Shown in pieces: positions 11,917 to 30,927 of a DNA stretch of 32,367 bases. The stretch spans positions 1-32,367 of IMG/VR virus record IMGVR_UViG_3300046724_000129; one strand, written 5' to 3'. A model generated the notes under the pieces. It ran no database searches. It had not been told where the DNA came from and was given only the letters and a program-made list of their open reading frames with translations. This DNA comes from a virus. The position numbers and the translations under genes were made by a program. How positions within the stretch are numbered: position 1 is the first letter of the stretch; the number at the start of each line of letters is the position of its first letter.

Positions 11917-12750
11917 TCAACCTCCTGTGCCCTGCAACATTTGTAACAGGGCCTGTAGCCCGCCTGAACTGCTCGCTCCGCTTCCCAGCATTCCAATGAT
12001 CGACTGCATGGGGTTCGCATTTCCCCCGGTCAACAATTCACTCCCGCCGAACTTCCCGATCCCGCTGCCAATCGCACTCCCAAAGGCGCCACCACCGAGA
12101 AGAGGACCGAGCAAGCCCGCGCCCATTCCTCCCGCCGCCATCGACATCACCAGCGCCGGCATGATCTCATTGCCCCACTTTTCCGAGAAGCTTCCATCCC
12201 CCGTATACGCAGTATGGAAGTTCGTATCCGGCGTGAAATACTGTCCCGTCCCCTCATCGAACGATACCTTGGATGGATCACCCACCCATTGGTGACCGCC
12301 CGAACTCGACCTGTTCTTGAACGCAGCATTGTTCGGATCGAATGCGATTGGTTCCTCGTTGTACTTTCCGCTCGACAACGCATTGCGCATCTCGCTCAAC
12401 ACGGTCGGATTGGTAATCGCCTTCCGGTTGACGTTGGCAGGGTCGAGCTCCTGGTTGTAATTGATCTCGTACTGGTCCGGCCGCGTTCCCTGTCCGCTCT
12501 CGTTGCTGTACGAAGTCCCGGCGATGGTGTTCATGGTCGCATTGGGATCGAACTTCAGTATCTCCGCAAGGCGTGACTGCGCATTCTGCTGGTTGTCGAT
12601 CAACTGTCCGCTGGTCCCGGTATCGGTGTACCCGTTGTACATACGCGAGAGGAGCGCAGGGTCTGTCGGCTGACGATTGGCCCAAGACGAATACTGGTCG
12701 GTATTCATGCCCTGAAGCATTTGCGTAATGCTGCTAAGTGCATCAGCCAT
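11917..12750 (-). CDS. structural protein with Gly-rich hydrophobic segment, 277 aa
   Basis: The second of two ATGs (12750) makes a TGATG junction with the hub gene's stop. The N-terminal two thirds are polar, with Asn, Gln and Tyr throughout. From about 190 to 240 there is a Gly/Ala/Met-rich hydrophobic stretch (A-L-V-M-S-M-A-A-G-G-M-G-A-G-L-L-G-P-L-L) followed by more Gly-rich sequence and an amphipathic C-terminus. This arrangement is frequent in phage internal proteins that may contact the membrane during DNA entry. It is the first gene after the hub, where P22 encodes its needle and ejection proteins. No specific family recognised. Confidence 0.5.
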   Translation of the reverse strand: MADALSSITQMLQGMNTDQYSSWANRQPTDPALLSRMYNGYTDTGTSGQLIDNQQNAQSRLAEILKFDPNATMNTIAGTSYSNESGQGTRPDQYEINYNQELDPANVNRKAITNPTVLSEMRNALSSGKYNEEPIAFDPNNAAFKNRSSSGGHQWVGDPSKVSFDEGTGQYFTPDTNFHTAYTGDGSFSEKWGNEIMPALVMSMAAGGMGAGLLGPLLGGGAFGSAIGSGIGKFGGSELLTGGNANPMQSIIGMLGSGASSSGGLQALLQMLQGTGG

Positions 12751-15146
12751 CATTCGCCCTGTTCAATGTTCGTGAACTCGATCTCTTCAAGCGCAAGAGG
12801 CTTACTGTCGAAACTGGTTATCAAGAGGGCTCTGCGCCGGCTCTGTCCCGTCTGGTAGATGATCGGCCTCGGAGTACTCATAACCACCTGACGGCCGTTG
12901 GACCATGTGTTGTAGTCGTCATCCGTGAACTGGATGTTGACCACGGCATCGGTCCTGTCGCCGATCAACTCCATCGGCCCCCAGAACTTGTTCGTATTGT
13001 TGCCGCCATCGAACTTCTGCGTCTGACTGGCAAAGACGTAGTCGCCATCGTAGTCGGTGCTGTTCGACCCGAGGGAATAGACGTTCCCGTTCAGTTCGTC
13101 AAGGAAGTACGAATTCTGCCCCGCATTGGAGATGTTGGTCGCACTCCCTCCGGTGAGGAACGCCTTCCCATCCTGCTGCCCGAAGTACGAATCTCCCCAG
13201 CGGAACCACTCGTTGGTGACGAGATCGTAGACGAACGTGAGCCACCCTGAATCGGTATCGAGACTCAGCAGGTAGAACTCATGCTCGAGATAGGTGATGA
13301 AGTCCGACCGGAAGAACTTCGGGTTGCTCCCAGCAATCAGCTTGTCGATCGCCGGGGTCGAGATCGGGACCGCATTGAGGCCGTCGAACTTGCAAATCTG
13401 GCGCAGACCTTCCTTGTTCTGCGACATCCATACGACCGTCTTGTCGAAGGTCTGCACCGTTGCTGCAGAAAAACAGCCCACCTTGATGCTCGCAGACAGG
13501 TACGGAAGGAGGGCTGAACCGGGAGAGACCCCGGCATCGTAGAAGAACTGGGTCGTGTACGTCCCGAACGCGACCAGATAGGTCAGGTACTTCGCAATGG
13601 CCACTCCGGGATCCGACTCGTAATCGGCCGGGATACGATTCTCCGGAGGCCAATGGTACGGGTTGTTTCCGGGAGAGCCCCAGATCAATCCGGAGTTGTC
13701 CATCACGTAAGCGGAGTCTCCGAGAACAACGATTCCCGGAACGGTATACGGAGGATAGGCTGCGTCCCACACCCGCTGCACGTTCCCCTGGTCAAGCACG
13801 AACAGGGCTTGCGTCGACTTGATCAGTAGCTGTGCTCCGTTGGAGAACTGCTGGAAGTCGTACCGGTCTCCTCCGGTATTGGGGAAGAGCCGAAACACGC
13901 TCGACGGAACGGAGTTGAGATTCCCGTACCAAGCCGTCTGCACGAAGGTGGCCCCGTTGGTCCCACCGATCAGCCAGATGCTCTGGTAGTGCTGGGGGCT
14001 CGCCGTGGTTGGTGTCCCGAACACAGTCGCGGCAATGCCAGCGTTGGCCCCCATCGGTACGTTGCCCACGAACGTCCACGTTGCGCCATCAGGCGAGGAG
14101 TAGATTGCCGCAGTCGTTCCAGCCGTGTTCGTGCCGCCGCCGAAGATCCACAACTTGTTGTTGTAGACGCAGCAGCCCGCGGAGTTGACCCCGACCGGCC
14201 ATGCAGCGGCGGTGATCTGACTCCAGGTTGCCCCACCTGTGGTGGAGAACCATGTGTCATTGAACCCGAGGGAAGATCCCTGTCCGCCGCCAATGAAGAT
14301 CGCGTTGTTGATGTACCACGAACTCATCAGGCGCCGACCGGCCCACATGGAGCCATTTACAGTAATTTGATTCCATGACACTCCGTCAACGGAGAACCAG
14401 ATGTCGTTGAGGTTGACCCCGGCGATGTTCGTGCCGCCCATGATGAACAAGCCGGCAGTTGTTGCCAACATGGTGTGTCCGGAACGTGCTTGCCACGGAC
14501 AGTTGGTCGCAATCTGCGTCCAGTTGCCGCCGTCGGTGGACCTCCACACATCGTTCTGCGGACCAAGCGGAGTCGTCCCGCTCAAGCCGTACCCTCCGGA
14601 CAGGTACATGGCGCCGTTGAAGACGCAGCCGCCGAAGGTCAGACGGTTGCCAAACGGAATTCCACCAGAGACAAGCGTCCAGGTGACCGTGTCGGTGCTG
14701 TACCAAACGTCCTGCGCGGCGATCGTGTTGTTGAACCCTCCGGTGAGATACACACCGTTGTTCAGCTTCAGCAGGAGCGCACCTGCTCGAGCAGACCACG
14801 GGCCGGTCGAGCCGTTGGTCCATGCCGTTCCATCGGTCCCGGAATTCGGCGCTCCAGGAGGGAAGACGAAAGCATCACCGCCAATGACGGAATCGGTCAC
14901 CACCGCATAGGGAAGGCCGTTGTAGACCGTCATCCCCTGACCGTAGGTCGCGTTGGAGTCCAGTTGATAGACGATGGACTTGCCGTACCGCTTCACGATG
15001 CGGCGATGGTCCCCGTCCTTCTCGACGTAGCAGTTGAACCGATCCGGGTCCTTCGGAGGAACGGCTGGATACCGCGTGTTGTTGTACACGCCGTTGGTCC
15101 GCGGAGCGAACTCGGAAATCGGGGGGATGCGAAGAGGTTTGCCCAT
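12750..15146 (-). CDS. P22 gp10-like tail hub with inserted Kelch-like propeller, 798 aa
   Basis: The start at ATG 15146 is three bases after the previous stop and has no good ribosome site. Residues 1-90 (R-Y-P-A-V-P-P-K-D-P-D-R-F-N-C-Y, I-V-K-R-Y-G-K-S) and 415-798 (V-A-I-A-K-Y-L-T-Y-L-V-A-F-G, V-V-W-M-S-Q-N, L-D-E-L-N-G-N-V-Y-S-L, R-R-R-A-L-L-I-T-S) follow the pattern of gp10-type tail accessory proteins, which bind below the adaptor and close the tail channel. Residues about 115-410 are different: six units of 48-57 residues, each with a Gly-Gly pair and a W-x-S-x-D-x-x-x-W-x-x motif, that is, Kelch-type blades. The insertion is unusual for the family as I know it. Confidence 0.65.
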   Translation of the reverse strand: MGKPLRIPPISEFAPRTNGVYNNTRYPAVPPKDPDRFNCYVEKDGDHRRIVKRYGKSIVYQLDSNATYGQGMTVYNGLPYAVVTDSVIGGDAFVFPPGAPNSGTDGTAWTNGSTGPWSARAGALLLKLNNGVYLTGGFNNTIAAQDVWYSTDTVTWTLVSGGIPFGNRLTFGGCVFNGAMYLSGGYGLSGTTPLGPQNDVWRSTDGGNWTQIATNCPWQARSGHTMLATTAGLFIMGGTNIAGVNLNDIWFSVDGVSWNQITVNGSMWAGRRLMSSWYINNAIFIGGGQGSSLGFNDTWFSTTGGATWSQITAAAWPVGVNSAGCCVYNNKLWIFGGGTNTAGTTAAIYSSPDGATWTFVGNVPMGANAGIAATVFGTPTTASPQHYQSIWLIGGTNGATFVQTAWYGNLNSVPSSVFRLFPNTGGDRYDFQQFSNGAQLLIKSTQALFVLDQGNVQRVWDAAYPPYTVPGIVVLGDSAYVMDNSGLIWGSPGNNPYHWPPENRIPADYESDPGVAIAKYLTYLVAFGTYTTQFFYDAGVSPGSALLPYLSASIKVGCFSAATVQTFDKTVVWMSQNKEGLRQICKFDGLNAVPISTPAIDKLIAGSNPKFFRSDFITYLEHEFYLLSLDTDSGWLTFVYDLVTNEWFRWGDSYFGQQDGKAFLTGGSATNISNAGQNSYFLDELNGNVYSLGSNSTDYDGDYVFASQTQKFDGGNNTNKFWGPMELIGDRTDAVVNIQFTDDDYNTWSNGRQVVMSTPRPIIYQTGQSRRRALLITSFDSKPLALEEIEFTNIEQGE

Positions 15147-15148
15147 TT

Positions 15149-16558
15149 TTATGCGAGAGAAATTATTTGAGAAATACCTGCGTTTCCACCAGTACCGTTT
15201 ACTCCGGTGCCACCGAGGGCCGGACCTCCTGATCCTCCCGCTACAGAAATGTTGAACGAGACAACAGCAGAAGTAGTTATGAAGATGATGAATCCACCAC
15301 CACCACCTCCTCCTCCACCACAATTTATGTTCAAAGGTGTTCCACCATTACCACCAAGCGCAGTCAAGGATCCTGTTCCGGTACAAAGAAACGCAAATAC
15401 CCCTAGATATCCACCTCCAGCCCCTGCTCCTGCTCCCTTGTTCGATCCATCCCCCCCGCCACCACCACCGCCTCCTCCCCCATCATATTTGCTGCCAGCG
15501 ATATTCTGTTGCAAGAAGAGCCCAAGCATTGAAGTCCATGGGAATGATCTGGGTGTCTCAATGCCTCCATTAGCGTCGGTGATGACGCCGCCTCCAACCG
15601 TCCCACCTACACCACCCGTTGTACCATTTCCTGCACCACCCGCTCCTCCGGCTGCGCCTATTCCACGAAAGGCATTCGTGCCGGGGGCGCCATTCCCAAT
15701 GTTTCCGATACCACCGGTAAGATTCTGGCTCCCGAAGAAGTTTGGCGTGGGTCCAACACCACCTCCGCTATGATCTCCCGTCCCCGGCGCACTCGGACCA
15801 TTATTCTGGATGGTCCCGGCAGCATCGATGTTCAAAGTTCCGTTCGCCCAGATACCGAAACTCTTGCAGACAATCGTGATCCCCGCATCAACCGAGATGT
15901 CGGTGCCGAAGATGTTGCGCAGAAGGGTGTAAGTAGTTCCTGCCGACAACGTTGCAAACGAGAATGTGTTGGTCCCATTGAAATCAATCGAACCATCGGT
16001 CCCAAGCCCGAACAGGTAGGCTTGTCCAGAAGCAATTGTTCGGTAGCGAACACCAAGAGGAACGGTCGAGTCGGCTACTAGAACATAAGTATCGGGACCT
16101 ACGGGAATGCGATCTCCTACGGTATCGAATCCGTAGATGTCGCCCTTGGTGGTCAAGGGAGAAGTGCTTGAACTTCCGGATGCAGAAATCGTGATCGGCG
16201 CAAGTGGACCACCGTCTGTAATGGTGATGTTCGTCCCCGCGGTCAGCTTGCGCGAGCTCGTCAGCGCAGGTTCGGTGACCGCCGTCACATACGAAGCATT
16301 GATCGGCGCCCCACCTCCACCTCCACCACCGGTAGAAGAGATGACGATGTCTCCACCCGGACCCTCATCCTCGATGGTGATGTTCGCGCCGGCAGTCAGC
16401 TTGCGCGAGGCAACGAGTCCGCTCTCCTTGACGGCCGTGACGAAACTCCAATCCGGCAGACGCATGAGATCGGCACGAAAACGGCCGAGCCATGTCTTGG
16501 TCCCTTCCAGAGAAGTACCTGGAGCAGGTTCCGGATTGAACATGGAGAAGAGACTCAT
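15149..16558 (-). CDS. glycine-rich tail adhesin-like protein, copy 2 (469 aa)
   Basis: ATG at 16558 overlaps the stop of its upstream paralogue (ATGA). A short N-terminal region (R-A-D-L-M-R-L-P-D-W-S-F-V-T-A) leads into two similar 45-residue modules with A-G-A/T-N-I-T-I and G-G-P. A T-T-K-G-D-I-Y-G-F-D-T motif typical of tail fibres follows, then a beta-rich domain. From about 300 to the end, long runs of Gly (up to eleven) alternate with hydrophobic segments. Such Gly-rich motifs form polyglycine-II sandwiches in distal tail adhesins such as gp38 of S16-like phages; host-receptor binding is inferred. Confidence 0.55.
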   Translation of the reverse strand: MSLFSMFNPEPAPGTSLEGTKTWLGRFRADLMRLPDWSFVTAVKESGLVASRKLTAGANITIEDEGPGGDIVISSTGGGGGGGAPINASYVTAVTEPALTSSRKLTAGTNITITDGGPLAPITISASGSSSTSPLTTKGDIYGFDTVGDRIPVGPDTYVLVADSTVPLGVRYRTIASGQAYLFGLGTDGSIDFNGTNTFSFATLSAGTTYTLLRNIFGTDISVDAGITIVCKSFGIWANGTLNIDAAGTIQNNGPSAPGTGDHSGGGVGPTPNFFGSQNLTGGIGNIGNGAPGTNAFRGIGAAGGAGGAGNGTTGGVGGTVGGGVITDANGGIETPRSFPWTSMLGLFLQQNIAGSKYDGGGGGGGGGGDGSNKGAGAGAGGGYLGVFAFLCTGTGSLTALGGNGGTPLNINCGGGGGGGGGFIIFITTSAVVSFNISVAGGSGGPALGGTGVNGTGGNAGISQIISLA

Positions 16559-17946
16559 GTGAGCGCAATCACCGTAGAGTTCCCGGCAACACCGTTTGAT
16601 CCGGTAATGCCACCTCCACCACCACCCGTACCGCCGGCTCCACCAGCAACCGAGAAGGTGAACGTCGGTGCCGTAGTTGTCGTCAGGAAGAAGAGATAAC
16701 CTCCACCCCCTCCACCGCCACCGCCACAGCCCACTATGCCAGGGCTTCCTCCATTGCCTCCTGTAGCGGTAATGGAACCTGTGCCTGAATTCAGGAAGGC
16801 ACAAATGCCGACATAGCCGCCACCAGATCCGCCACCACCACCTTTGTTCGATACGTTGTCTCCACCCGCGCCGCCACCACCAGCACCACCGTTGTATCGC
16901 AATCCGGCCGAGGTGAATCCCTGTTCAAGTCCAACCATCGAGACAAGAACGAGGTTAATTGGTGTCTCCACACCGCCATTGTTCACCGCAGGAGGAGTAA
17001 TATTTCCACCGACCGCTCCACCTGTTCCACTCCCGTTCCCGCCTCTTCCTCCAGTACCGCCCAGCGCATGGCTGTTGTTTGAACCAAAGCTACCGCCGCC
17101 AATGTTTCCAGCACCACCAGAACCAGACTGACCGCAGTAGAAGTTGAAGGGAACGCTTGCTCCAGCAGTTCCTGTGCTGCTTCCATTTGGACCGTTGCTG
17201 TGAATGAGCGCAGTCGAAGGAACGGTAAGAGTTCCGTTCGCCCATATGCCGAAATTGTTGGCATACACGGTGATGCCGGCTGACAGCGTGATGTTCGTCC
17301 CGAAGATGTTGCGCGTCAGGGTATACGTACTTCCTGCCAGAGAGGCAAAGGCGAAGGTGTTCGTTCCATTGAACGCAATCGTCCCATCCGAACCCGTTCC
17401 GAAGAGCCAGATCAGGGGCGAGAAGATGGTTCGATAGGTCACCCCGAGTGCCGTTGCAGAATTGGCCGACAGGGCAAATCCATCCTGACCCACGGGGATG
17501 CGGTTGTCTGCAGTATCGAAACCCCAGATGTCACCCTTCGTCGTCAGGGGCGAGGTCGTTCCCCCGCCCGTCGCGCTCACCGTGATCGGACCCAGCGCAC
17601 CCCCGTCGACAATGGTCACGTTCGTGCCGGCGGTCAGAAGACGGGATTGCGTCAGGGCCGGTTCGGTCACAGCAGTCACATAGGATGCGTTGATGGGAGC
17701 TCCACCCCCGCCGCCCCCGGTCGACGCGATCGTGATGTCCCCACCGGGACCGCCATCCGTAATCGTGACATTCGCCCCCGCCTTCAGCCGTCTTGAGGCG
17801 ACAAGTCCCGATTCCTTGATCGCGGTGACGAAACTCCAGTCGGGCAGTCGGAGAAGGTCAGCCCGCAGCTTGCCGAGCCAGATCACTACCTGCTCGAGTT
17901 TGGACTTCGGGTCCATTTCCGGCGGGAGGGCAGAGAAGAAACTCAT
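16555..17946 (-). CDS. glycine-rich tail adhesin-like protein, copy 1 (463 aa)
   Basis: ATG at 17946 overlaps the stop of the adaptor-fusion gene (ATGA); an upstream in-frame start at 17961 is less likely. The architecture equals that of the following gene: D-W-S-F-V-T-A-I-K-E-S-G-L-V-A-S-R, two A-G-x-N-V-T-I modules, T-T-K-G-D-I-W-G-F-D-T, a domain with R-N-I-F-G-T-N-I-T-L, and a C-terminal half full of Gly runs. The N-terminal halves of the pair are nearly the same while the Gly-rich halves differ in detail, as expected when the exposed ends diverge. A distal tail adhesin or fibre component is the likely role. Confidence 0.55.
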   Translation of the reverse strand: MSFFSALPPEMDPKSKLEQVVIWLGKLRADLLRLPDWSFVTAIKESGLVASRRLKAGANVTITDGGPGGDITIASTGGGGGGAPINASYVTAVTEPALTQSRLLTAGTNVTIVDGGALGPITVSATGGGTTSPLTTKGDIWGFDTADNRIPVGQDGFALSANSATALGVTYRTIFSPLIWLFGTGSDGTIAFNGTNTFAFASLAGSTYTLTRNIFGTNITLSAGITVYANNFGIWANGTLTVPSTALIHSNGPNGSSTGTAGASVPFNFYCGQSGSGGAGNIGGGSFGSNNSHALGGTGGRGGNGSGTGGAVGGNITPPAVNNGGVETPINLVLVSMVGLEQGFTSAGLRYNGGAGGGGAGGDNVSNKGGGGGSGGGYVGICAFLNSGTGSITATGGNGGSPGIVGCGGGGGGGGGYLFFLTTTTAPTFTFSVAGGAGGTGGGGGGITGSNGVAGNSTVIALT

Positions 17947-20051
17947 GTCCATCCGCCCCACGGGTTATCGAGTCTCTGATCCGGCAGGAACTGGAATCCT
18001 GCGTTCTCCACGCTCCACTCCTGAACGTCCTTGTGGTACTTGGATGCTTGTTTGGCAAGGCGCCGGAGCCGTGACTGCGGGACCTCGTACTGGTCCGCCA
18101 TCATCACCGCAAGACCGTACCGTAGAGCGAGATACCACTCGCACGGGAAGTCGAATTCATCCGTTCCCGCGGTCATGACGTAGATGGGCCGCTGGAAGTT
18201 GCAGACGACGATGTCCGTCGAGTTCATCGCATTAGAATAGACGTACAGGGTTCCATGACCGGTCGACGGCGAGGTGGTCGACCCGGAGTTGATCCCGGAG
18301 TCGTAGTAGATGGCGGTCGCGGTGTCTTGATACCCCTTCTGCACGATCTGCGCGTACTCGGAACGCGACAGGATCTTCACATCTCGGTCGTAGCCGGAGA
18401 TGCTGTGGACGTAGGATCCTGCCAGCATGAGCCGCAGCGGCCGGACACTCGTCACGTTCGCCCCTGATGGACCGATGGTGTAGGCGTTCTGACCCGCGAC
18501 CAGGGGAATCGGAAGCCATTGATACGTCCATAGCTGGAGCCCGCGGGATTGCCAGTTGGTGATCAGGGTGTTCAGGTCTTCTGCACCCGTGGCAATCTGG
18601 TTCGCGCTCATGACCTGATCGTCCTGCAGCACATGGAGGAGTCGCAGGGAGGATGCGATCATCGAATCCCGCGTGATGGTGATGCAGGAAGTGCCGGAGG
18701 AGCCGAATGGAACCGGCGGATACAGGGTCGGATAGGCCGAGGTCGAGGTGTTCTGAACCTGCCAAACGTGCCTCGGCGCCGCGACGAAAGAGACTTTTCC
18801 CGGAGGATTGGGTTGCTGGACGAACTTCTGCGCCGCATAGGCCGAGGCATCCGTCGGTGCGGGCTGGAAGATGTATCGCTGCGGCGGCAGGGAGGACTGC
18901 TTGCCGGCCGGAAGCGGAGTCGAGACAAACGGGTGCAGCGTCTGGTACGCCGCAGTCGAGGTATCGGCCGGCTGGAAGAAGTACTTCGCCGGAGAAACAT
19001 AGACCTGTTCCCCCGGAGGAACCGGAGGAAGCGGGTGCGTGGTCTGGTACGCAGAGGTCGAAGTGTCTGCGGGCTGGAAGAAATACCGTGCCGGCGAGAC
19101 ATACACCTGCTCGCCCACCGGCATCTGGGTCGGCTGCAGCCAGAAGGGGAACGATTTCGAGGAGTCAGTCGGCTGGAACCAGACCTTCTGCGGTCCAACG
19201 TAGACCTGATCCCCGATCGGGAGCGAGGCTTCCGGTACGAGAACCTTTGCAGAGCCTGTGCTGGTGTCGTCAGGCTGGAAGAAGTACCGCGCGGGGCTAA
19301 CGTAGACCTGTTCGCCCACCGGAAAGACGACAGGAGCGGGCTGCGGCAGGACAAACGATGTATCCGCAGGTTGATACAGGAGTTTCTGCGGGCCGATATA
19401 GACCTGTTCGCCCGGAGGAAATGCCGTCGGCAGCAACGACAGCGGCAGGGCGAACGACGTATCGTCCGGTTGGAACCAGTACTTCTGCGGGCCTACATAG
19501 ACCTGATCACCAACCGGAAGATTGACTTCCGGGAGCAGAACCTTGGCCGACCCCGCACTCGTATCATCCGGCTGGAACCAGTACTTGACCGGAGCGAACA
19601 GCGGCTGATTGAAGATCGGCTTGGGCGGTACGACTGCCTTCAGGGAAAGCGACGTACCGCTCGAGGTATCCGGAAGGATGCGAACGGGCGCCGGAGAACT
19701 TTCTACCTGCCTCTTCCCGGACGGAAGGACCAGTTCAGGAATGAGGTTCTTCGGAGTGCTGCGTGAAGTCTCCGAGAAGAGCCGAGGTAATTGCAGCGGA
19801 TCCCAGAGCGGCGTCTTCCCGATCGGGAGCGTTACCTCACGCCGCAGAACTGTGGGAAGGCTCTGACTGGTATCTGCGTTGATGCGCAGCAGGGAGGGCG
19901 CAGATGCACATTGCGCCTCTCCCGGCGGCATCCCTGCTACAACGGCAAGGGTGGTCAGGAGAAGTGCCTGACCGACCCATGCAGAAACAGCGAGAACAGG
20001 GGGCTGTTCCCGCTTCGTTACAAAAAGAGGTCCCCGGAAGACGTTAGCCAT
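17943..20051 (-). CDS. tandem-repeat protein fused to a second gp4-like tail adaptor, 702 aa
   Basis: ATG at 20051 is preceded by GGAGG at four bases. Residues about 456-702 closely resemble the stand-alone adaptor of this phage: both share D-L/A-L-N-T-L-I-T-N-W-Q-S, G-L-Q-L-W-T-Y-Q-W-L, N-F-Q-R-P-I-Y-V-M and D-E-F-D-F-P. Residues about 30-455 are about ten or more units of 32-36 residues with the core P-V-G-E-Q-V-Y-V-S-P-A-R-Y-F-F-Q-P-x-D-T-S, degenerating toward the N-terminus. The hydrophobic stretch near residue 25-40 (G-Q-A-L-L-L-T-T-L) looks like the first repeat rather than a signal peptide. Adaptors of the gp4 type join portal to hub; what the repeats do is unknown. Confidence 0.65.
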   Translation of the reverse strand: MANVFRGPLFVTKREQPPVLAVSAWVGQALLLTTLAVVAGMPPGEAQCASAPSLLRINADTSQSLPTVLRREVTLPIGKTPLWDPLQLPRLFSETSRSTPKNLIPELVLPSGKRQVESSPAPVRILPDTSSGTSLSLKAVVPPKPIFNQPLFAPVKYWFQPDDTSAGSAKVLLPEVNLPVGDQVYVGPQKYWFQPDDTSFALPLSLLPTAFPPGEQVYIGPQKLLYQPADTSFVLPQPAPVVFPVGEQVYVSPARYFFQPDDTSTGSAKVLVPEASLPIGDQVYVGPQKVWFQPTDSSKSFPFWLQPTQMPVGEQVYVSPARYFFQPADTSTSAYQTTHPLPPVPPGEQVYVSPAKYFFQPADTSTAAYQTLHPFVSTPLPAGKQSSLPPQRYIFQPAPTDASAYAAQKFVQQPNPPGKVSFVAAPRHVWQVQNTSTSAYPTLYPPVPFGSSGTSCITITRDSMIASSLRLLHVLQDDQVMSANQIATGAEDLNTLITNWQSRGLQLWTYQWLPIPLVAGQNAYTIGPSGANVTSVRPLRLMLAGSYVHSISGYDRDVKILSRSEYAQIVQKGYQDTATAIYYDSGINSGSTTSPSTGHGTLYVYSNAMNSTDIVVCNFQRPIYVMTAGTDEFDFPCEWYLALRYGLAVMMADQYEVPQSRLRRLAKQASKYHKDVQEWSVENAGFQFLPDQRLDNPWGGWT
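18690..19960 (-). repeat. in-frame tandem repeats of about 96-108 bp within the adaptor-fusion gene
   Basis: The coding repeats give a period near 100 bp. Several units are very close, for example those encoding Q-V-Y-V-S-P-A-R-Y-F-F and Q-V-Y-V-G-P-Q-K-Y-W-F, while units at both ends are degenerate. Alternation of two unit types (G-S-A-K-V-L versus S-A-Y-Q-T) suggests that pairs of units were duplicated. Recombination between units could change the length of the protein. Confidence 0.7.
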
Positions 20052-20079
20052 CAGTCCTCCGGAGACAGACCACGATCAA

Positions 20080-20588: not shown

Positions 20589-20912
20589 TCACGGCAGGAT
20601 TAATCCGGAGGTGGCTTGCCGCTCAACCTTCTCCAGTTCTTCTTCCACGAATTGCGCAAACGTCCTGCAGGAAGCACCCGCAACCATCTCTGCTGCGCAC
20701 TTGTCGCAGATGTGATGATTGCATCCCTTGCACTTGTAACGCTCCCGCGTCCTCTGCGGGTTCAGCACCACCACATACTGGCAATGCGAGCAGGTATACG
20801 TGTCGGCCTCGAAATGACGCATCGTTCCCGGCGGCAACTGATCCGCCGTCGCACGGTGATCGATCTCGAGATAGCCGAGTCCTCTTGGTTCTTTGTCCGA
20901 TTGGATGATCAT
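20589..20912 (-). CDS. zinc-ribbon protein in the late operon, 107 aa
   Basis: ATG at 20912 follows GAGGAAACC. After 38 residues with E-I-D-H-R-A-T-A-D-Q-L-P-P-G come C-S-H-C, then Y-K-C-K-G-C-N-H-H-I-C-D-K-C, giving a two-site Cys/His cluster that should bind zinc, and a helical Glu-rich C-terminus. Similar small proteins occur in phage structural operons, where their role is unknown; they may help assembly. Start, coupling and Cys spacing make it a real gene. Confidence 0.6.
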   Translation of the reverse strand: MIIQSDKEPRGLGYLEIDHRATADQLPPGTMRHFEADTYTCSHCQYVVVLNPQRTRERYKCKGCNHHICDKCAAEMVAGASCRTFAQFVEEELEKVERQATSGLILP

Positions 20913-22347: not shown

Positions 22348-23598
22348 TCACTTTACCGTCACGCTTCCATTACCGTTGTTGGTGAACGTCTTGTTGGTCC
22401 CATCCGTCGTCGTGTAGCTTTGACCTGTCGGAAGACGGGCGTAGTCAGTCGTGTCGCTGCCGCCATAGTTGCTGCCGAACGTTTCCTGCTTGTGGACCCG
22501 GATCTCGTTGCGCCAGTCACCCTGGAAGTCGACCATCCATTGCCCGCATTGAATTGCGTCCGGATAGGCCGTGATGGTGCGCAGGGTGGCACTCGCACAC
22601 GGCTTCGGCGTCAGCGCACCAAGAGCCACAAGATGAGGAGAGGCGAATCCGGTCAGCGTGAAGAAGTCCGAACCGCGCCCCATCTGGTCAACGTCACTCC
22701 CATACTCGACATAGTTGCCGTTGTACTTCGATGCGTTGTGCAGCATCCAGAGCGCATGGCCGATCTCATGGGCGTACAAGCCCGCGCCGTCCGGAACCGT
22801 TCCCCATACCGCAACGAATTCACCACCAGTTGATGCCTGGGACGACCAGCAGGTATACGGAGTCACCCCGACGACAACGTCCGGAACAGGTTTCCTGCCA
22901 CCGATTGCGGCATAGGCATCGGAATACATATTTTGCCAACCGCAACTAGTAGCCTTGCCGAGCTCCACCGCGGGAAGCACGGTGATGTTCAGCTTACGAA
23001 CACCGAACGTGGTCGTCAGATACCACGCCGCCACGCGATCCATGATCGGTTGCAGAGCAGCAGTCGTCACCTTCGGCAACGTCTGGTTGTATCCATCAAT
23101 CGAAGGCTGGCTCGCGCCGTCATACATCTGATAGCGCAGCGGGACCACGTACACCGTCGTCGTGATGACCGGCGCGGGCGGCGTCCCCGAAGGAGGAGGT
23201 GGCGGCGGGGGAGGAGGAGGTGGCGGCGGCGGCGGGGGTGGCGGCGGCGGGGGCGGTCCTACCGTCGGACAGGTCACCACCGTCTGCAGCCCTGTGACGT
23301 TGATCGTCGCGCAATGTCCGTCACCGAACTGAACGAAGCCCTGTCCACTCACGATGATGATTCGCGCCGCCCTGAAGGAAGTCGATGCCGCATAGCTAGA
23401 CCCGACCAGCGTGTACTGGAGGTAGGCGTAATTGCCCTGGGCATCGACTGCCCCATAGTTCTGGAAGAATTGCTGCGTGGTAGTGGTAACCCACCTTGCC
23501 CCTGCGCTCCCTTCGTACACCCCGTCAGGCTGCGACACCACCTGCCCAACGGCAGAGATGCAGAAGAACAGGGAAAAGACTGCGATGATCTTTTTCAT
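22348..23598 (-). CDS. exported M11 gametolysin-like metzincin protease, 416 aa
   Basis: ATG at 23598 overlaps the preceding TGA (ATGA) and follows GGAA by seven bases. A Sec signal peptide (K-K then A-V-F-S-L-F-F-C-I-S-A) covers about 1-20. Residues 20-110 form a small beta domain, then 22 consecutive prolines (115-136) and a catalytic domain. The zinc motif H277-E278-x-x-H281-x5-H287 (A-H-E-I-G-H-A-L-W-M-L-H) and a Met-turn at M306 (S-D-V-D-Q-M-G) identify a metzincin; Y-G-S-D-V-D-Q-M-G is the pattern of M11 gametolysins. The product would go to periplasm or be released at lysis. Such an enzyme in a phage late operon is unusual. Confidence 0.75.
   Translation of the reverse strand: MKKIIAVFSLFFCISAVGQVVSQPDGVYEGSAGARWVTTTTQQFFQNYGAVDAQGNYAYLQYTLVGSSYAASTSFRAARIIIVSGQGFVQFGDGHCATINVTGLQTVVTCPTVGPPPPPPPPPPPPPPPPPPPPPPSGTPPAPVITTTVYVVPLRYQMYDGASQPSIDGYNQTLPKVTTAALQPIMDRVAAWYLTTTFGVRKLNITVLPAVELGKATSCGWQNMYSDAYAAIGGRKPVPDVVVGVTPYTCWSSQASTGGEFVAVWGTVPDGAGLYAHEIGHALWMLHNASKYNGNYVEYGSDVDQMGRGSDFFTLTGFASPHLVALGALTPKPCASATLRTITAYPDAIQCGQWMVDFQGDWRNEIRVHKQETFGSNYGGSDTTDYARLPTGQSYTTTDGTNKTFTNNGNGSVTVK
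23188..23260. repeat. low-complexity polyproline tract, GGN/CCN repeats
   Basis: An uninterrupted run of 22 CCN codons on the minus strand (GGN on the plus strand) joins the N-terminal and catalytic domains of the M11-like protease. The tract is prone to slippage, and polyproline should form an extended rod-like linker. Confidence 0.7.
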
Positions 23599-24968
23599 TT
23601 GCACTTTCCGCTATTGCCGCGAGGCGTACATGGTTTCGACGCTACCCAATTGACTGTGACCTGTGCCGTACTGCTGGTCGTTCCGTTGCTCGCTGTCATC
23701 GCATACACCACAGGGCCTACCACCGAAGCCGTCGCCCTGCACGAACTGGTCGTACTCGAGCAGTTGGTCCAGACATAGGTCGTCGGACTACCGGCACAGG
23801 ATGCAGAGATCGTGATGGTCGTCCCGATAACAGGATTGGCCGGCGCTGACAGCGTGCATGACACAGGAGGCGGCGGCGGGGCCGTCGCACTTCTGAAGTT
23901 GGCAATCGCATAGGCGTTCTGGGTCAACGCCCGCACGTTGTCGGCCGAGGTCGTGTTCCCCATCGGATTCAACGGATTCCCATAGGACAGGAGCGGCGTG
24001 GAGAAATACTGCAGCCGCGTCCCGCCGCATTGGGTCGGATAGGCCATGACCGTGCGCCATCCGGAGCAATCAACCCAGCCGTGGTTGAACCCTGGGGTCG
24101 AATCCACGTACATATCGTGCCGCGCACCCATCAGGTGACCGAGTTCGTGCGGGAACGACAGGTTGCCCACCGCGCAGCCGCGGTTGATGACTGACCACGC
24201 GATGTTCGCATCAGGACCAATGCCGTAACTCATGCCGCAGTACCCGCCCGACTCCTCGACGTACATGGCAACGAGGTCGGCGTAGTGCGTGTTGCGCATC
24301 GATGCAACCGTAGGATCGGATGCAAGCCAATTAACGTCTGCCGTCTGGTCACCGAGCTCGTCGTGCGCAACCTGCTGTGACCAGACAAGGTTGATGCGAA
24401 ACGGAAGGCCGCTATTCAGATACACCTGATTGCTGACATCGATGGCATTCTGTATCTGCGAGCCGATCGCGGTCCCGGCCGCAAGAGCGGTCTGGTTCGT
24501 GTACACCACCATCACATCGATAACTGCCCCGGTATCGCCCTGTACGTCGGCCGGAGGACGCGCCGGAGCAACATGGTCGAGCGTGTCCTGCTTCGCATCC
24601 GGGAACCCCTTCGGATCCAGTTCCACCAGGGTCTGCTTGCCGTCCGCAGCGGTCCTGATCTCGTAGGCAGGTTCGTTCCCCTTGTTGCCGAGGTAGATGT
24701 ACCCGGAGATCACTCCGTTGACGCTGGTGAGGATCGCATGGCCGTTCGGGTAATCCTTGACCTTGCCGTGCCAAGTGAAGCTGCTCGCGTTGCGATGATC
24801 CACATGATGGACGATCAGCGTGAACGGCGGGATCGACAGTTTCGCAGTCGGACGGGTGATCGAGATCGAGATCGGCGTCGACTTCTTGATGCCGTGATTC
24901 TTCTCGTAGTTCTGCGCCCAACCAACCGTGCTGAATATCGATAGTGCGATGACGAGGAGGAATTTCAT
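23595..24968 (-). CDS. exported M72 peptidyl-Asp metalloprotease-like protein, 457 aa
   Basis: ATG at 24968 overlaps the adaptor's TGA (ATGA); an upstream in-frame ATG at 24980 is weaker. Residues 1-19 are a signal peptide cut after G-W-A-Q. Residues 20-145 look like a propeptide (G-Y-I-Y-L-G-N-K, Y-E-I-R-T-A-A-D-G-K). The catalytic domain starts near V-I-D-V-M-V-V-Y-T-N and has the C-G-M-S-Y block, H274-E-L-G-H278-x5-H284-D, W-R-T-V-M-A-Y (Met-turn M308) and N-P-M-G, all as in family M72 (endoproteinase Asp-N type). A short Pro linker (364-368) leads to a Cys-containing Ig-like domain (370-441). Most M72 enzymes are bacterial secreted proteases; a phage copy is unusual. Confidence 0.8.
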   Translation of the reverse strand: MKFLLVIALSIFSTVGWAQNYEKNHGIKKSTPISISITRPTAKLSIPPFTLIVHHVDHRNASSFTWHGKVKDYPNGHAILTSVNGVISGYIYLGNKGNEPAYEIRTAADGKQTLVELDPKGFPDAKQDTLDHVAPARPPADVQGDTGAVIDVMVVYTNQTALAAGTAIGSQIQNAIDVSNQVYLNSGLPFRINLVWSQQVAHDELGDQTADVNWLASDPTVASMRNTHYADLVAMYVEESGGYCGMSYGIGPDANIAWSVINRGCAVGNLSFPHELGHLMGARHDMYVDSTPGFNHGWVDCSGWRTVMAYPTQCGGTRLQYFSTPLLSYGNPLNPMGNTTSADNVRALTQNAYAIANFRSATAPPPPPVSCTLSAPANPVIGTTITISASCAGSPTTYVWTNCSSTTSSCRATASVVGPVVYAMTASNGTTSSTAQVTVNWVASKPCTPRGNSGKCK

Positions 24969-25735
24969 CTGGAGGGCCATCTTGATCCCATTCTGAAATC
25001 CGGCTGGAAACGGAACTTCGATTCCTCGACGCTCCAATCCTGCACTTTCTGGTGATGTTTCTCTGCCTGTTCGCGCACCCGTAACAGGCGCCCGTCAGGG
25101 ACTTCGTACTCGTCGGCAAGGATCTCCGCGAGTCCGTAGCGCAATGCAAGGAACCACTCCGCGGGGAAGTCGAACTCGTCCGTCGAGTTGTTCATCACGT
25201 AGATCGGCCGCTGGAAATTGCCGATGATCGTATGCGTCGTATCGGTCGGGTTGCAGTACAGGTAGAGCGTCCCGTACCCGACCGAAGGCGAGGTCACCAA
25301 ACCGGAGTCGATCCCCGGCTGGTAGTAGATCGAGTTGGTCGTACCCTGGGACTGCTTGTTGCCGAAGTTGGCGTAGTCCGTCCGGGAAAGCACGATCAGC
25401 GGCGTGTCCATCTGGATGCCGCCGACCGTGTTCCGGATGAAGCACCCGTCCTCCATCAGCTTCAGGGGACGGACGTTGGTCACATCAGCCGCGGACGGCC
25501 CGATGGTGTAGACGTACTTGTTGACCTGACAGGGAATCTCGAGCCATTGGTACGTCCACAACTGCAGACCATTCGACTGCCAGTTGGTGATGAGCGTGTT
25601 CAGGGCTTCCGATCCGTTGGTGATCTGGTTCACGGACGGAGTCTGTCCATCCTGCAGAACCCGGAGGGTCCGCATGGACGCCGCGATCAACTGGTCGCGG
25701 TTGAGGGTGAAGGATGCTTGCCCTGAACTTGCCAT
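24965..25735 (-). CDS. P22 gp4-like tail adaptor protein, 256 aa
   Basis: ATG at 25735 follows GAGG by five bases. The protein starts with helical residues of the gp4 type (L-N-R-D-Q-L-I-A-A-S-M-R-T-L-R-V-L, A-L-N-T-L-I-T-N-W-Q-S-N-G-L-Q-L-W-T-Y), then a beta domain (Y-T-I-G-P, D-V-T-N-V-R-P), and ends with helices (E-W-F-L-A-L-R-Y-G-L, D-W-S-V-E-E). In P22, gp4 binds below the portal, completes the head and holds the tail hub. A second, fused version is encoded at 17943-20051. The M72 protease gene starts on its stop codon. Confidence 0.75.
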   Translation of the reverse strand: MASSGQASFTLNRDQLIAASMRTLRVLQDGQTPSVNQITNGSEALNTLITNWQSNGLQLWTYQWLEIPCQVNKYVYTIGPSAADVTNVRPLKLMEDGCFIRNTVGGIQMDTPLIVLSRTDYANFGNKQSQGTTNSIYYQPGIDSGLVTSPSVGYGTLYLYCNPTDTTHTIIGNFQRPIYVMNNSTDEFDFPAEWFLALRYGLAEILADEYEVPDGRLLRVREQAEKHHQKVQDWSVEESKFRFQPDFRMGSRWPSR

Positions 25736-28766: not shown

Positions 28767-29050
28767 TTCTTTATCCCCTTGTATGCAGCATAGGCCACGA
28801 TCAGACCGGTCCCGATAGTGATCAGGTACTTGATCACGCTGGTGCCAAGCCTGCTGGCATTGAGAAGGTCGGTCAGTTGTGTCACGGCTGCTGTGTTCGC
28901 TGCGAGTTGTTGTGCGATGGTCGTCTGCTGCGCCCTTATCTCCATCATTTCCCTGTCTAGTCGGTCAAGATGCTCCTGAATGTGACCACGAAATTCTGCA
29001 TCCAGAGAACGCCTATCGGGGACAAGGTCCTCCTCCACTATCTTGTTCAC
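28763..29050 (-). CDS. coiled-coil protein with C-terminal TM, holin-like, 95 aa
   Basis: GTG at 29050 overlaps the tail fibre stop as GTGA. Residues about 20-65 form a charged coiled coil with [19 protein letters not shown] and N-T-A-A-V-T-Q; a single hydrophobic helix (about 73-90, [12 protein letters not shown]) and K-G-I-K-N end the protein. This plan is shared with XhlA/haemolysin-type lysis accessory proteins. It lies just upstream of the endolysin, so a lysis role is likely. Confidence 0.55.
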
Positions 29051-30927
29051 AGGTCGGCATCCACGGTGTAATGAAAAGCAATCGCCCCGCCCACGGTCGT
29101 CCCCGCATTCCCCGTGACCTGCGCCACCTGGATGCCGCGCTCGCTCGTCGTGGTCAGGGTCATGGCGGAAGTGTCAGCCGCGGCGGTCAGGTCTCTAGCC
29201 TGTGCGTTCGCTGCAGACGGGTTGTATGTGGTCGGAGTCGGGTTTGAGCCGACACGAAGCGGAATCTCGTATTCCTGCGCGAACCGGTTGGTGGTCGCCC
29301 CCGCGCTTGCAGCGATGAACACCAGAGACCCGGCCACCCCACCATTCTGGGCAGGCGTCGTCGAATACGGGAAGGTCTTCTGGTAGTACCGCTTGCAGCG
29401 GGCCAGTTCGTCCTCGAATTGAAGGTACGGGAACGCCGGGGTCGATACCCCTTCGGCAAGGACGACCTCGGTGCAGTACGCGGACAGGGCGGCAGGATTG
29501 TTCCCTATCGGAAGCTGAATCTCGATCTCGATCCCGTTGGAGCAATCGCCCATAGAAATTCCAGCAGAGACTCCCTGTGTTCCTGTCACAAGCCCTGTAG
29601 GGACCACAATCGACCCGGAGGTGCTGATCACGGTCACGCCGGCAAAGTTGTCCTGCGCGGTGGCCTTGCGCACGACGATGACCGCGTTCTGGCTCGAGCC
29701 GCTGTTCTGCGCAAGCAAGCAACTGACCGACACGGTCGCATTCTTGTAGCGAACGGCGTCCCGTGATTCGATCCTGGTGCGGAATGAAATCTGCGACGTA
29801 CCGGTTGCGGCCAGAGCCGTGCCGCTCAAGTAGTAGCCGGTGCGACCAACCGTGCCCCCTGTTCCCTGCGTGCCGCTTCCGGAAACCGCAGAGCCGGACG
29901 AGAACCACATGGTCCACTTGTCGATCACGTACTGGGCCGCGGTCGAGAGAGCCACCGTCGCCCCGCGCTGGTTTACCACCATCCCGCCATTGATGACGGC
30001 GTTGTACGGAGTGTTGAGCGAGGTACTGGCGGTGATCCCAAGCATTGCCGAGACTTGCCCGACCGTCAGGTCCTGCGGCGCCGCGGAGCCACCCGTGTTG
30101 TTGCCCTTGATCGTGTTCCCCGCCATGTTCGCCATCTTGGCGTTGGTCACGGCAGAGTTGGCGATGGTCGAGGCAAGACTGCCTACGCCGTTCGTCACAT
30201 CGCCCGTGTGCGCGGGTTCGTAAATGACCCATGCTGCACCCGTGTCCCGGTAGAGGACCGCGGTGTCGGTGGCGAGGTAGTACCGGTTGAGCGTCCCGAA
30301 GGCGGGCTTCGCTGCATCCAGGCCGGTCAGGAGATTCGCCACCCCGCCCGCGGTGGTCAAAGCCCCGATCATGGTCGCGGTCTGCGCGGGCGTGAGTTGC
30401 GCTACCGCTCCCGGCGCCGTGGCGCCAAGAACGCCGGCCGCAGCCATTGGCGTGAGGCTCGTCGTCAGGACATTGGCCGCATTTGCCTGTGTGATCCCAT
30501 TCCCGGCCGCGATACGGCTCGAGTTGGCAAGCGTACCTGTCTCGTTGTTGATCGTGACATACGTCGCCGCCGCCGGAGCCGTACCGGAGCCAATGGAGTC
30601 GACAATCCCCTGCGCGGTCAGACGGAGCTCAACCCGATCTCCCGGCGCCCACGCGACTCCCGTCGTCCCTTCCTGCGCCCGCGTGATGGTCATCGCCCCC
30701 GAGCCGGTGTAGAGCGTGACCTTGACGATCTCGCGCGACTGCGGCGGGTTGATGCCGTTGGCGTAGCTGTACTGGTCGACCAGGGTCGCGTAGAAGTACG
30801 TCGGATTCGAGACCGACGGGAAATTCTGCGAGAACGGGGCGAGCGCCACCGACATCGTGGTCTGCACCGACGACATCGAGGCCGTGAGCGTTCCGGCTAC
30901 TGCATTGGCGAACTGGACATTAGCCAA
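29047..30927 (-). CDS. tail fibre protein, 626 aa
   Basis: TTG at 30927 follows GGAG by six bases and overlaps the previous gene's stop. The N-terminal 110 residues ([18 protein letters not shown]) are typical of phage fibre base domains. A long Ala/Thr/Gly-rich shaft with Q-L-T-P-A-Q-T and [12 protein letters not shown] follows, and the C-terminal 230 residues form a beta domain ending near [12 protein letters not shown] (about 510-520), a motif of receptor-binding fibre ends. Host recognition is the expected role. Confidence 0.75.

Follow-up and report, generated by a model that had tools for sequence, protein, structure and literature searches.

The adaptors of podophages, described as P22 gp4, Sf6 gp7, T7 gp11 and SU10 gp11 and collected in the families Ad3 and phrog_12985, have a common fold, and their genes cluster with the nozzle gene. 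As a rule, the appendages of phages are separate fibres, trimeric and docked at the seam between adaptor and nozzle. The middle domain of the adaptor is what docks the fibres in T7 and SU10, being in T7 also part of the portal contact, and a C-terminal embracing segment grips the portal (PMC6702177; PMC9509320). Podophage tails carry 'one to three dodecameric adaptors' (PMC11784390). The tail barrel of the short-tailed phage crAss001 (ring proteins R1-R5) consists of five stacked rings built from four paralogous adaptor-fold proteins, of which R1 and R2 dock fibre hubs (PMC10172136). Two different adaptor-fold chains are likewise present in one tail in the portal-tail structure of Ralstonia phage GP4 (8jov). 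The locus shown here shares with crAss001 and GP4 the presence of more than one adaptor-fold protein in one phage, and differs from the podophage adaptors in that the genome encodes two paralogues, one of which bears an N-terminal repeat arm of 450 residues that is absent from all relatives examined. Adaptors of this kind and paralogous rings were already known, the latter from those two phages, but a paralogous adaptor with a long orphan repeat arm is a new form.

The window, which is the whole stretch of 32,367 nucleotides that was analysed, corresponds to positions 6025-38391 of a 47,752 bp IMG/VR record that adds the portal and terminase genes. RNA and tRNA scans across the window found nothing. 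The repeat-carrying gene and its parts are as follows.

17943..20051, minus strand: repeat-adaptor fusion gene (adaptor2), 702 aa, an open reading frame with GGAGGA before its ATG
20055..20060, minus strand: Shine-Dalgarno sequence GGAGGA of the fusion gene, from the sequence
19932..20051, minus strand: residues 1-40, a non-repeat or very degenerate N-terminal segment with no HMM match and pLDDT of about 30-37
18711..19931, minus strand: array of 12 repeat units, residues 41-447, from unit segmentation, self-alignment and HMM
18915..19628, minus strand: seven well-conserved units 4-10, residues 142-379, from alignment, selection and HMM, each modelled with one hairpin in the best of the AlphaFold models
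17946..18704, minus strand: predicted adaptor domain, residues 450-702, from phrog_12985 (E 1.3e-19) and P22 gp4 (Z 15.1)

The Shine-Dalgarno sequence lies 3 bases 5' of the ATG, and the sequence holds no start codon able to free the adaptor at the junction of repeats and adaptor, so that repeats and adaptor appear to be translated as one protein. Its frame of 702 codons is intact. A second IMG/VR contig (G001, 47,752 bp) includes the whole window with 99.994% identity and a third (L002) terminates within the repeat array; the presence of the array on these contigs too rules out an assembly accident of one contig.

Residues 450-702 are, by family match and predicted fold, a podophage head-tail adaptor with the fold of P22 gp4, T7 gp11 and SU10, in line with the adaptor that the original prediction had placed behind the repeats. 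Residues 460-668 account for the match to phrog_12985, a family that is itself unannotated, and phage records annotated 'tail adaptor' match the fused domain, the match to the PHROG Ad3 family phrog_637 being weak (E 0.042). In the full-length AlphaFold2 model, a monomer prediction made with 53 sequences, pLDDT is about 72-96 across most of the adaptor domain, which is modelled as a helix bundle and a beta-rich middle domain. The modelled domain (residues 456-698) fits P22 gp4 at 2.4 A over 114 residues, and matches 9k09, 8jov and 7z47 over 198-208 residues with larger rmsd. Adaptor-fold matches were obtained with chains of T7 gp11, SU10, N4, Pam1, GP4, cyanophage A4 and crAss001, and the T7 and SU10 alignments span the middle domain at an rmsd of 6-7 A.

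The original prediction had missed a stand-alone paralogue of this domain elsewhere in the window.

24965..25735, minus strand: stand-alone paralogous adaptor (adaptor1), 256 aa, sharing 55% identity with the fused copy

The two copies group as sisters with support of 100/94 in a tree of 31 adaptors, where they lie next to those of two relatives (L090 and L091), and the branch of the fused copy is the longer one (0.52 vs 0.32 for adaptor1). Being sisters, they point to a duplication that arose in this lineage. One adaptor was found in 26 of the 28 records searched, several of which are fragments, and the other two records are near-identical copies of this genome. The rings of crAss001 share 15-31% identity, vs 55% between the two copies here, which suggests that the duplication in the present lineage is younger; no arm of this kind appears in the part of the crAss001 description that was available. 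None of about 80 relative loci has an N-terminal adaptor extension of more than 41 residues, and no relative at these loci carries the repeat. With a stand-alone adaptor1 present, the question shifts from an adaptor that has gained an arm to a duplicated adaptor of which one copy has become an arm carrier.

The two copies have also diverged unequally. Of the alignment columns, 68 are conserved in 80% or more of the relatives; adaptor1 deviates from these in 22 cases and adaptor2 in 30. Adaptor2 alone deviates in 11 columns, of which seven, by a domain split made by hand, lie at residues 549-608 in the middle beta domain, against 3 columns in which adaptor1 alone deviates. In view of the role of the middle domain in T7 and SU10, losses there that are private to adaptor2 fit a changed partner. 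From this analogy we infer that adaptor1 probably keeps the canonical role and that adaptor2 has changed its partner.

The repeats had originally been placed at 18690-20051, which equals residues 1-454 and agrees with the N-terminal part of the fusion to within a few residues, and the estimate of about ten tandem repeats of 32-36 residues was close to the twelve in-register units found, whose consecutive lengths are 34, 34, 33, 36, 33, 32, 34, 33, 34, 36, 35 and 33. The core of units 4-10 reads xPxGxQVYVxPxKYxFQPxDTS, with three prolines, two glutamines, the D and the S invariant. At lag 34 the self-alignment score of the fusion protein is +177, vs a mean of -349 (sd 44) in 1000 shuffles, the best of which reached -158 at any lag of 20-60. 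When an HMM is made from units 5-10 alone, it independently picks up unit 4 at 31.7 bits and also unit 11 at 13.8 bits; the scores fall to 2.5-3.3 bits for units 1 and 12 and to -0.6 for unit 2, and unit 3 is unmatched. Since the best shuffles reach 3.1 bits with the same HMM, the four degenerate units 1, 2, 3 and 12 are not significant by themselves and are placed by register and by the PxG...DTS positions alone. The block of units 4-6 shares 57-58% identity with that of units 7-9, which indicates that the array partly grew through a higher-order duplication of three units. Tandem Repeats Finder does not report the array in the DNA. The array is thus real at the protein level and eroded at the DNA level.

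No convincing match to the repeat was found in Pfam, PHROGs, NCBIfam or PDB sequences, in line with the earlier remark that it was not known to have a functional description; at the sensitivity of the searches, the phage and plasmid collections, IMG/VR and the GTDB genomes yielded no relative either. The curated repeat profiles of Pfam and PHROGs gave nothing even at E 10 beyond a chance match of 10 residues. With TPR, PPR and beta solenoids, the known tandem repeats of similar length (about 34 residues), the array has the period alone in common. Back-translated motif scans of viral and genome contigs returned copies of this genome only, or nothing, motif-based scans being of a kind that overlooks strongly diverged repeats. 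The N-terminus gave no tblastn match in phages, the plasmid search matched the adaptor domain only, and the adaptor alignment searched against genome contigs gave no confirmed match. Several candidates were rejected: Pfam SNU71_N (E 0.013-0.033, 10 residues) is a proline-rich chance match, FAP65, an antibody chain and an enoyl reductase were discarded among the PDB sequences, the single tblastn match of the repeat in phages (E 2, a baseplate-region protein) was judged to be chance, and the viral-contig matches of two degenerate DNA patterns were all dismissed by the repeat HMM or by translation. The repeat is an orphan module whose fold is at present unpredictable from sequence.

Models of the arm are of low confidence. 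In the best of five full-length AlphaFold2 models there is one short hairpin per unit (QVYV-xP-xYWFQ) in units 4-10, with hairpin pLDDT of 50-68, and this regularity coincides with the conserved core; the whole-chain pLDDT is 56 for this model vs averages of 44-47 for the other four. An isolated fragment of three units, modelled from a four-row repeat alignment, has a pLDDT of 41 and no secondary structure. Matches of the adaptor domain took up the whole VIA-align list, which is therefore uninformative on the repeat fold. The repeat composition of 17% Pro and 15% aromatic residues speaks against a helical repeat. Of the solenoid or extended beta rod that was first suggested, the hairpins of one model are what stands, the isolated triple giving none, and the models weakly suggest that the repeats may form a beta-hairpin rod.

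Selection on the repeat was estimated between units 4-10. In the 22-residue core pN is 0.28 vs pS 0.67 (JC dN 0.36, dS 1.70) and in the spacer, taken as the eight residues after DTS, pN is 0.61 vs pS 0.67, values that come from non-independent unit pairs and small counts. Purifying selection acts on the cores, which are old and near saturation at synonymous sites, and does not act on the spacers; the functional module is accordingly one of about 22 residues with a free spacer. The regular aromatic, Pro and Gly positions noted in the original prediction are hence borne out and conserved by selection. Disorder with no conservation across relatives had been named there as the outcome that would count against a structural repeat; it is found in part, in that no relative carries the repeat, but the units themselves show constraint.

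The constraint bears on two other explanations of the arm. According to the first, the fusion is of low consequence, adaptor2 being redundant and the repeats a dispensable, drifting low-complexity extension. The restriction to one lineage, the degenerate outer units and the low structural confidence would all agree with this, but cores kept while synonymous differences near saturation argue against a dispensable extension, and so do the intact frame with its strong Shine-Dalgarno sequence and the adaptor domain itself, which retains every residue invariant across the adaptor alignment; we consider this explanation quite unlikely. According to the second, the arm would be a flexible, mostly unfolded rope, in which the 22-residue cores are binding motifs that order upon binding and each core captures one partner subunit, be it a Gly-rich, a decoration or the 164-aa protein encoded just upstream. 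Constrained cores with spacers free in sequence and length are what is expected of a motif array, and the isolated triple gives no stable AlphaFold fold. Phage GP4 reportedly has a 'rope protein' that strings fibre dimers; it would be a separate protein, whereas the repeats here are fused to the adaptor. The high aromatic and hydrophobic content, the position of the repeat on the folded side of the charge-hydropathy plot and the regular hairpins of the best full-length model are however at odds with an unfolded rope, which makes it doubtful but of appreciable probability.

Candidates for a partner of the arm are found in the genes that follow the fusion gene.

16555..17946, minus strand: Gly-rich fibre-like protein 1, its start overlapping the adaptor2 stop (ATGA), from composition and paralogy
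15149..16558, minus strand: Gly-rich fibre-like protein 2, a paralogue of protein 1 with 59% identity, joined by an ATGA overlap
12750..15146, minus strand: nozzle/tail hub protein, from phrog_578 Hc3 (E 3.4e-29) and from a Kelch propeller that sequence comparison alone identifies strongly (PF24681, E 1e-28)

The fusion gene and the two Gly-rich genes are joined by ATGA overlaps in succession, and we read this arrangement as putative translational coupling of the three. In nearly all relatives with the nozzle in reach, the nozzle gene directly follows the adaptor gene. In the present genome the order after adaptor1 is two metallopeptidase genes, further genes, the fusion gene, the two Gly-rich paralogues and the Kelch nozzle, so that eight genes, including the fusion gene and the fibre-like genes, separate adaptor1 from the nozzle, and the two Gly-rich genes separate adaptor2 from it. 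The adaptor pair and this gene order indicate that the adaptor was duplicated and the stretch between adaptor and nozzle expanded. A Gly-rich fibre-like gene directly upstream of the adaptor is seen in one relative (L090), in a short matched segment. The two Gly-rich fibre-like proteins resemble Gly-rich adhesins.

The reading that we prefer, and to which we give about an even chance, is that of a duplicated adaptor in which copy 1 is ordinary and copy 2 makes up all or part of a second ring, whose repeat arms lie outside and either hold appendages or are appendages themselves. After duplication of the adaptor gene in the lineage of this phage, the copy at 24965-25735 (copy 1) would have remained the ordinary head-to-tail adaptor on the portal. 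By analogy to the known multi-ring tails, copy 2, with the twelve-repeat arm at its N-terminus, would build a further ring of the adaptor type or supply some of the subunits of a mixed ring. If dodecameric, the ring would bear up to twelve arms, which would most likely lie outside the neck or tail as extended chains; along each chain a conserved module of 22 residues, which may be a beta hairpin, would recur every 34 residues. The arms may serve as, or dock, appendages for host contact, for which the two downstream Gly-rich fibre-like proteins would be the simplest partner; the ATGA overlaps make them first candidates, and gene order and overlap are all that would tie them to the arm. Ring formation, outward orientation, appendage role and partner of the arm are our inferences, and the whisker pointing from the neck in the original prediction would be conjectural in the same way. 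Against this preferred reading stand the low confidence of the predicted arm structure and the result that the collections searched hold no arm-bearing homologue, hence no cross-lineage conservation.

The orientation of the arm can be weighed against an internal position, in the tail channel or head, where it would act as plug, tether or ejected cargo. The tail barrel of crAss001 stores cargo (PMC10172136), but twelve arms of 450 residues, with a total mass of about 0.6 MDa, would need room beside the DNA in a T7-like channel of 40 A (PMC6702177). The neighbouring genes are moreover fibre-like and do not resemble those of ejection proteins, and in T7 the loop between the first two helices contacts the nozzle (PMC6702177), so that the chain start should face the portal side, on its inner or its outer face. 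An internal arm is on these grounds very unlikely.

A more far-reaching form of the external arm is a neofunctionalised second ring with up to twelve arms of twelve modules each, up to 144 sites, acting as a scaffold that strings many Gly-rich adhesins around the neck of a short-tailed phage. This would be a new type of appendage, built as an extension of a ring and not as a docked fibre, and we hold it to be unlikely. Either form of the external arm, if true, would show how a ring protein of the particle can be doubled, released from its original task and made to carry an appendage.

Other genes of the window, all on the minus strand, deserve mention. The two zinc metallopeptidase-like proteins both have a signal-peptide-like N-terminus: the one at 23595-25037 matches the M12 reprolysins (Pfam E 8.9e-14, HELGH), and the one at 22348-23604 has HEIGHALWMLHN and a long poly-proline linker. 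Such an adjacent pair is unusual cargo amid podophage structural genes. A 107-aa protein (20589-20912) has an IBR/RING-like zinc-binding pattern with a sub-threshold match to Pfam IBR (E 7e-4), and a tail-fibre-like protein is encoded at 29047-30927, with a match to phrog_4492 (E 1e-21) and a sub-threshold match to the DUF5907 repeat.
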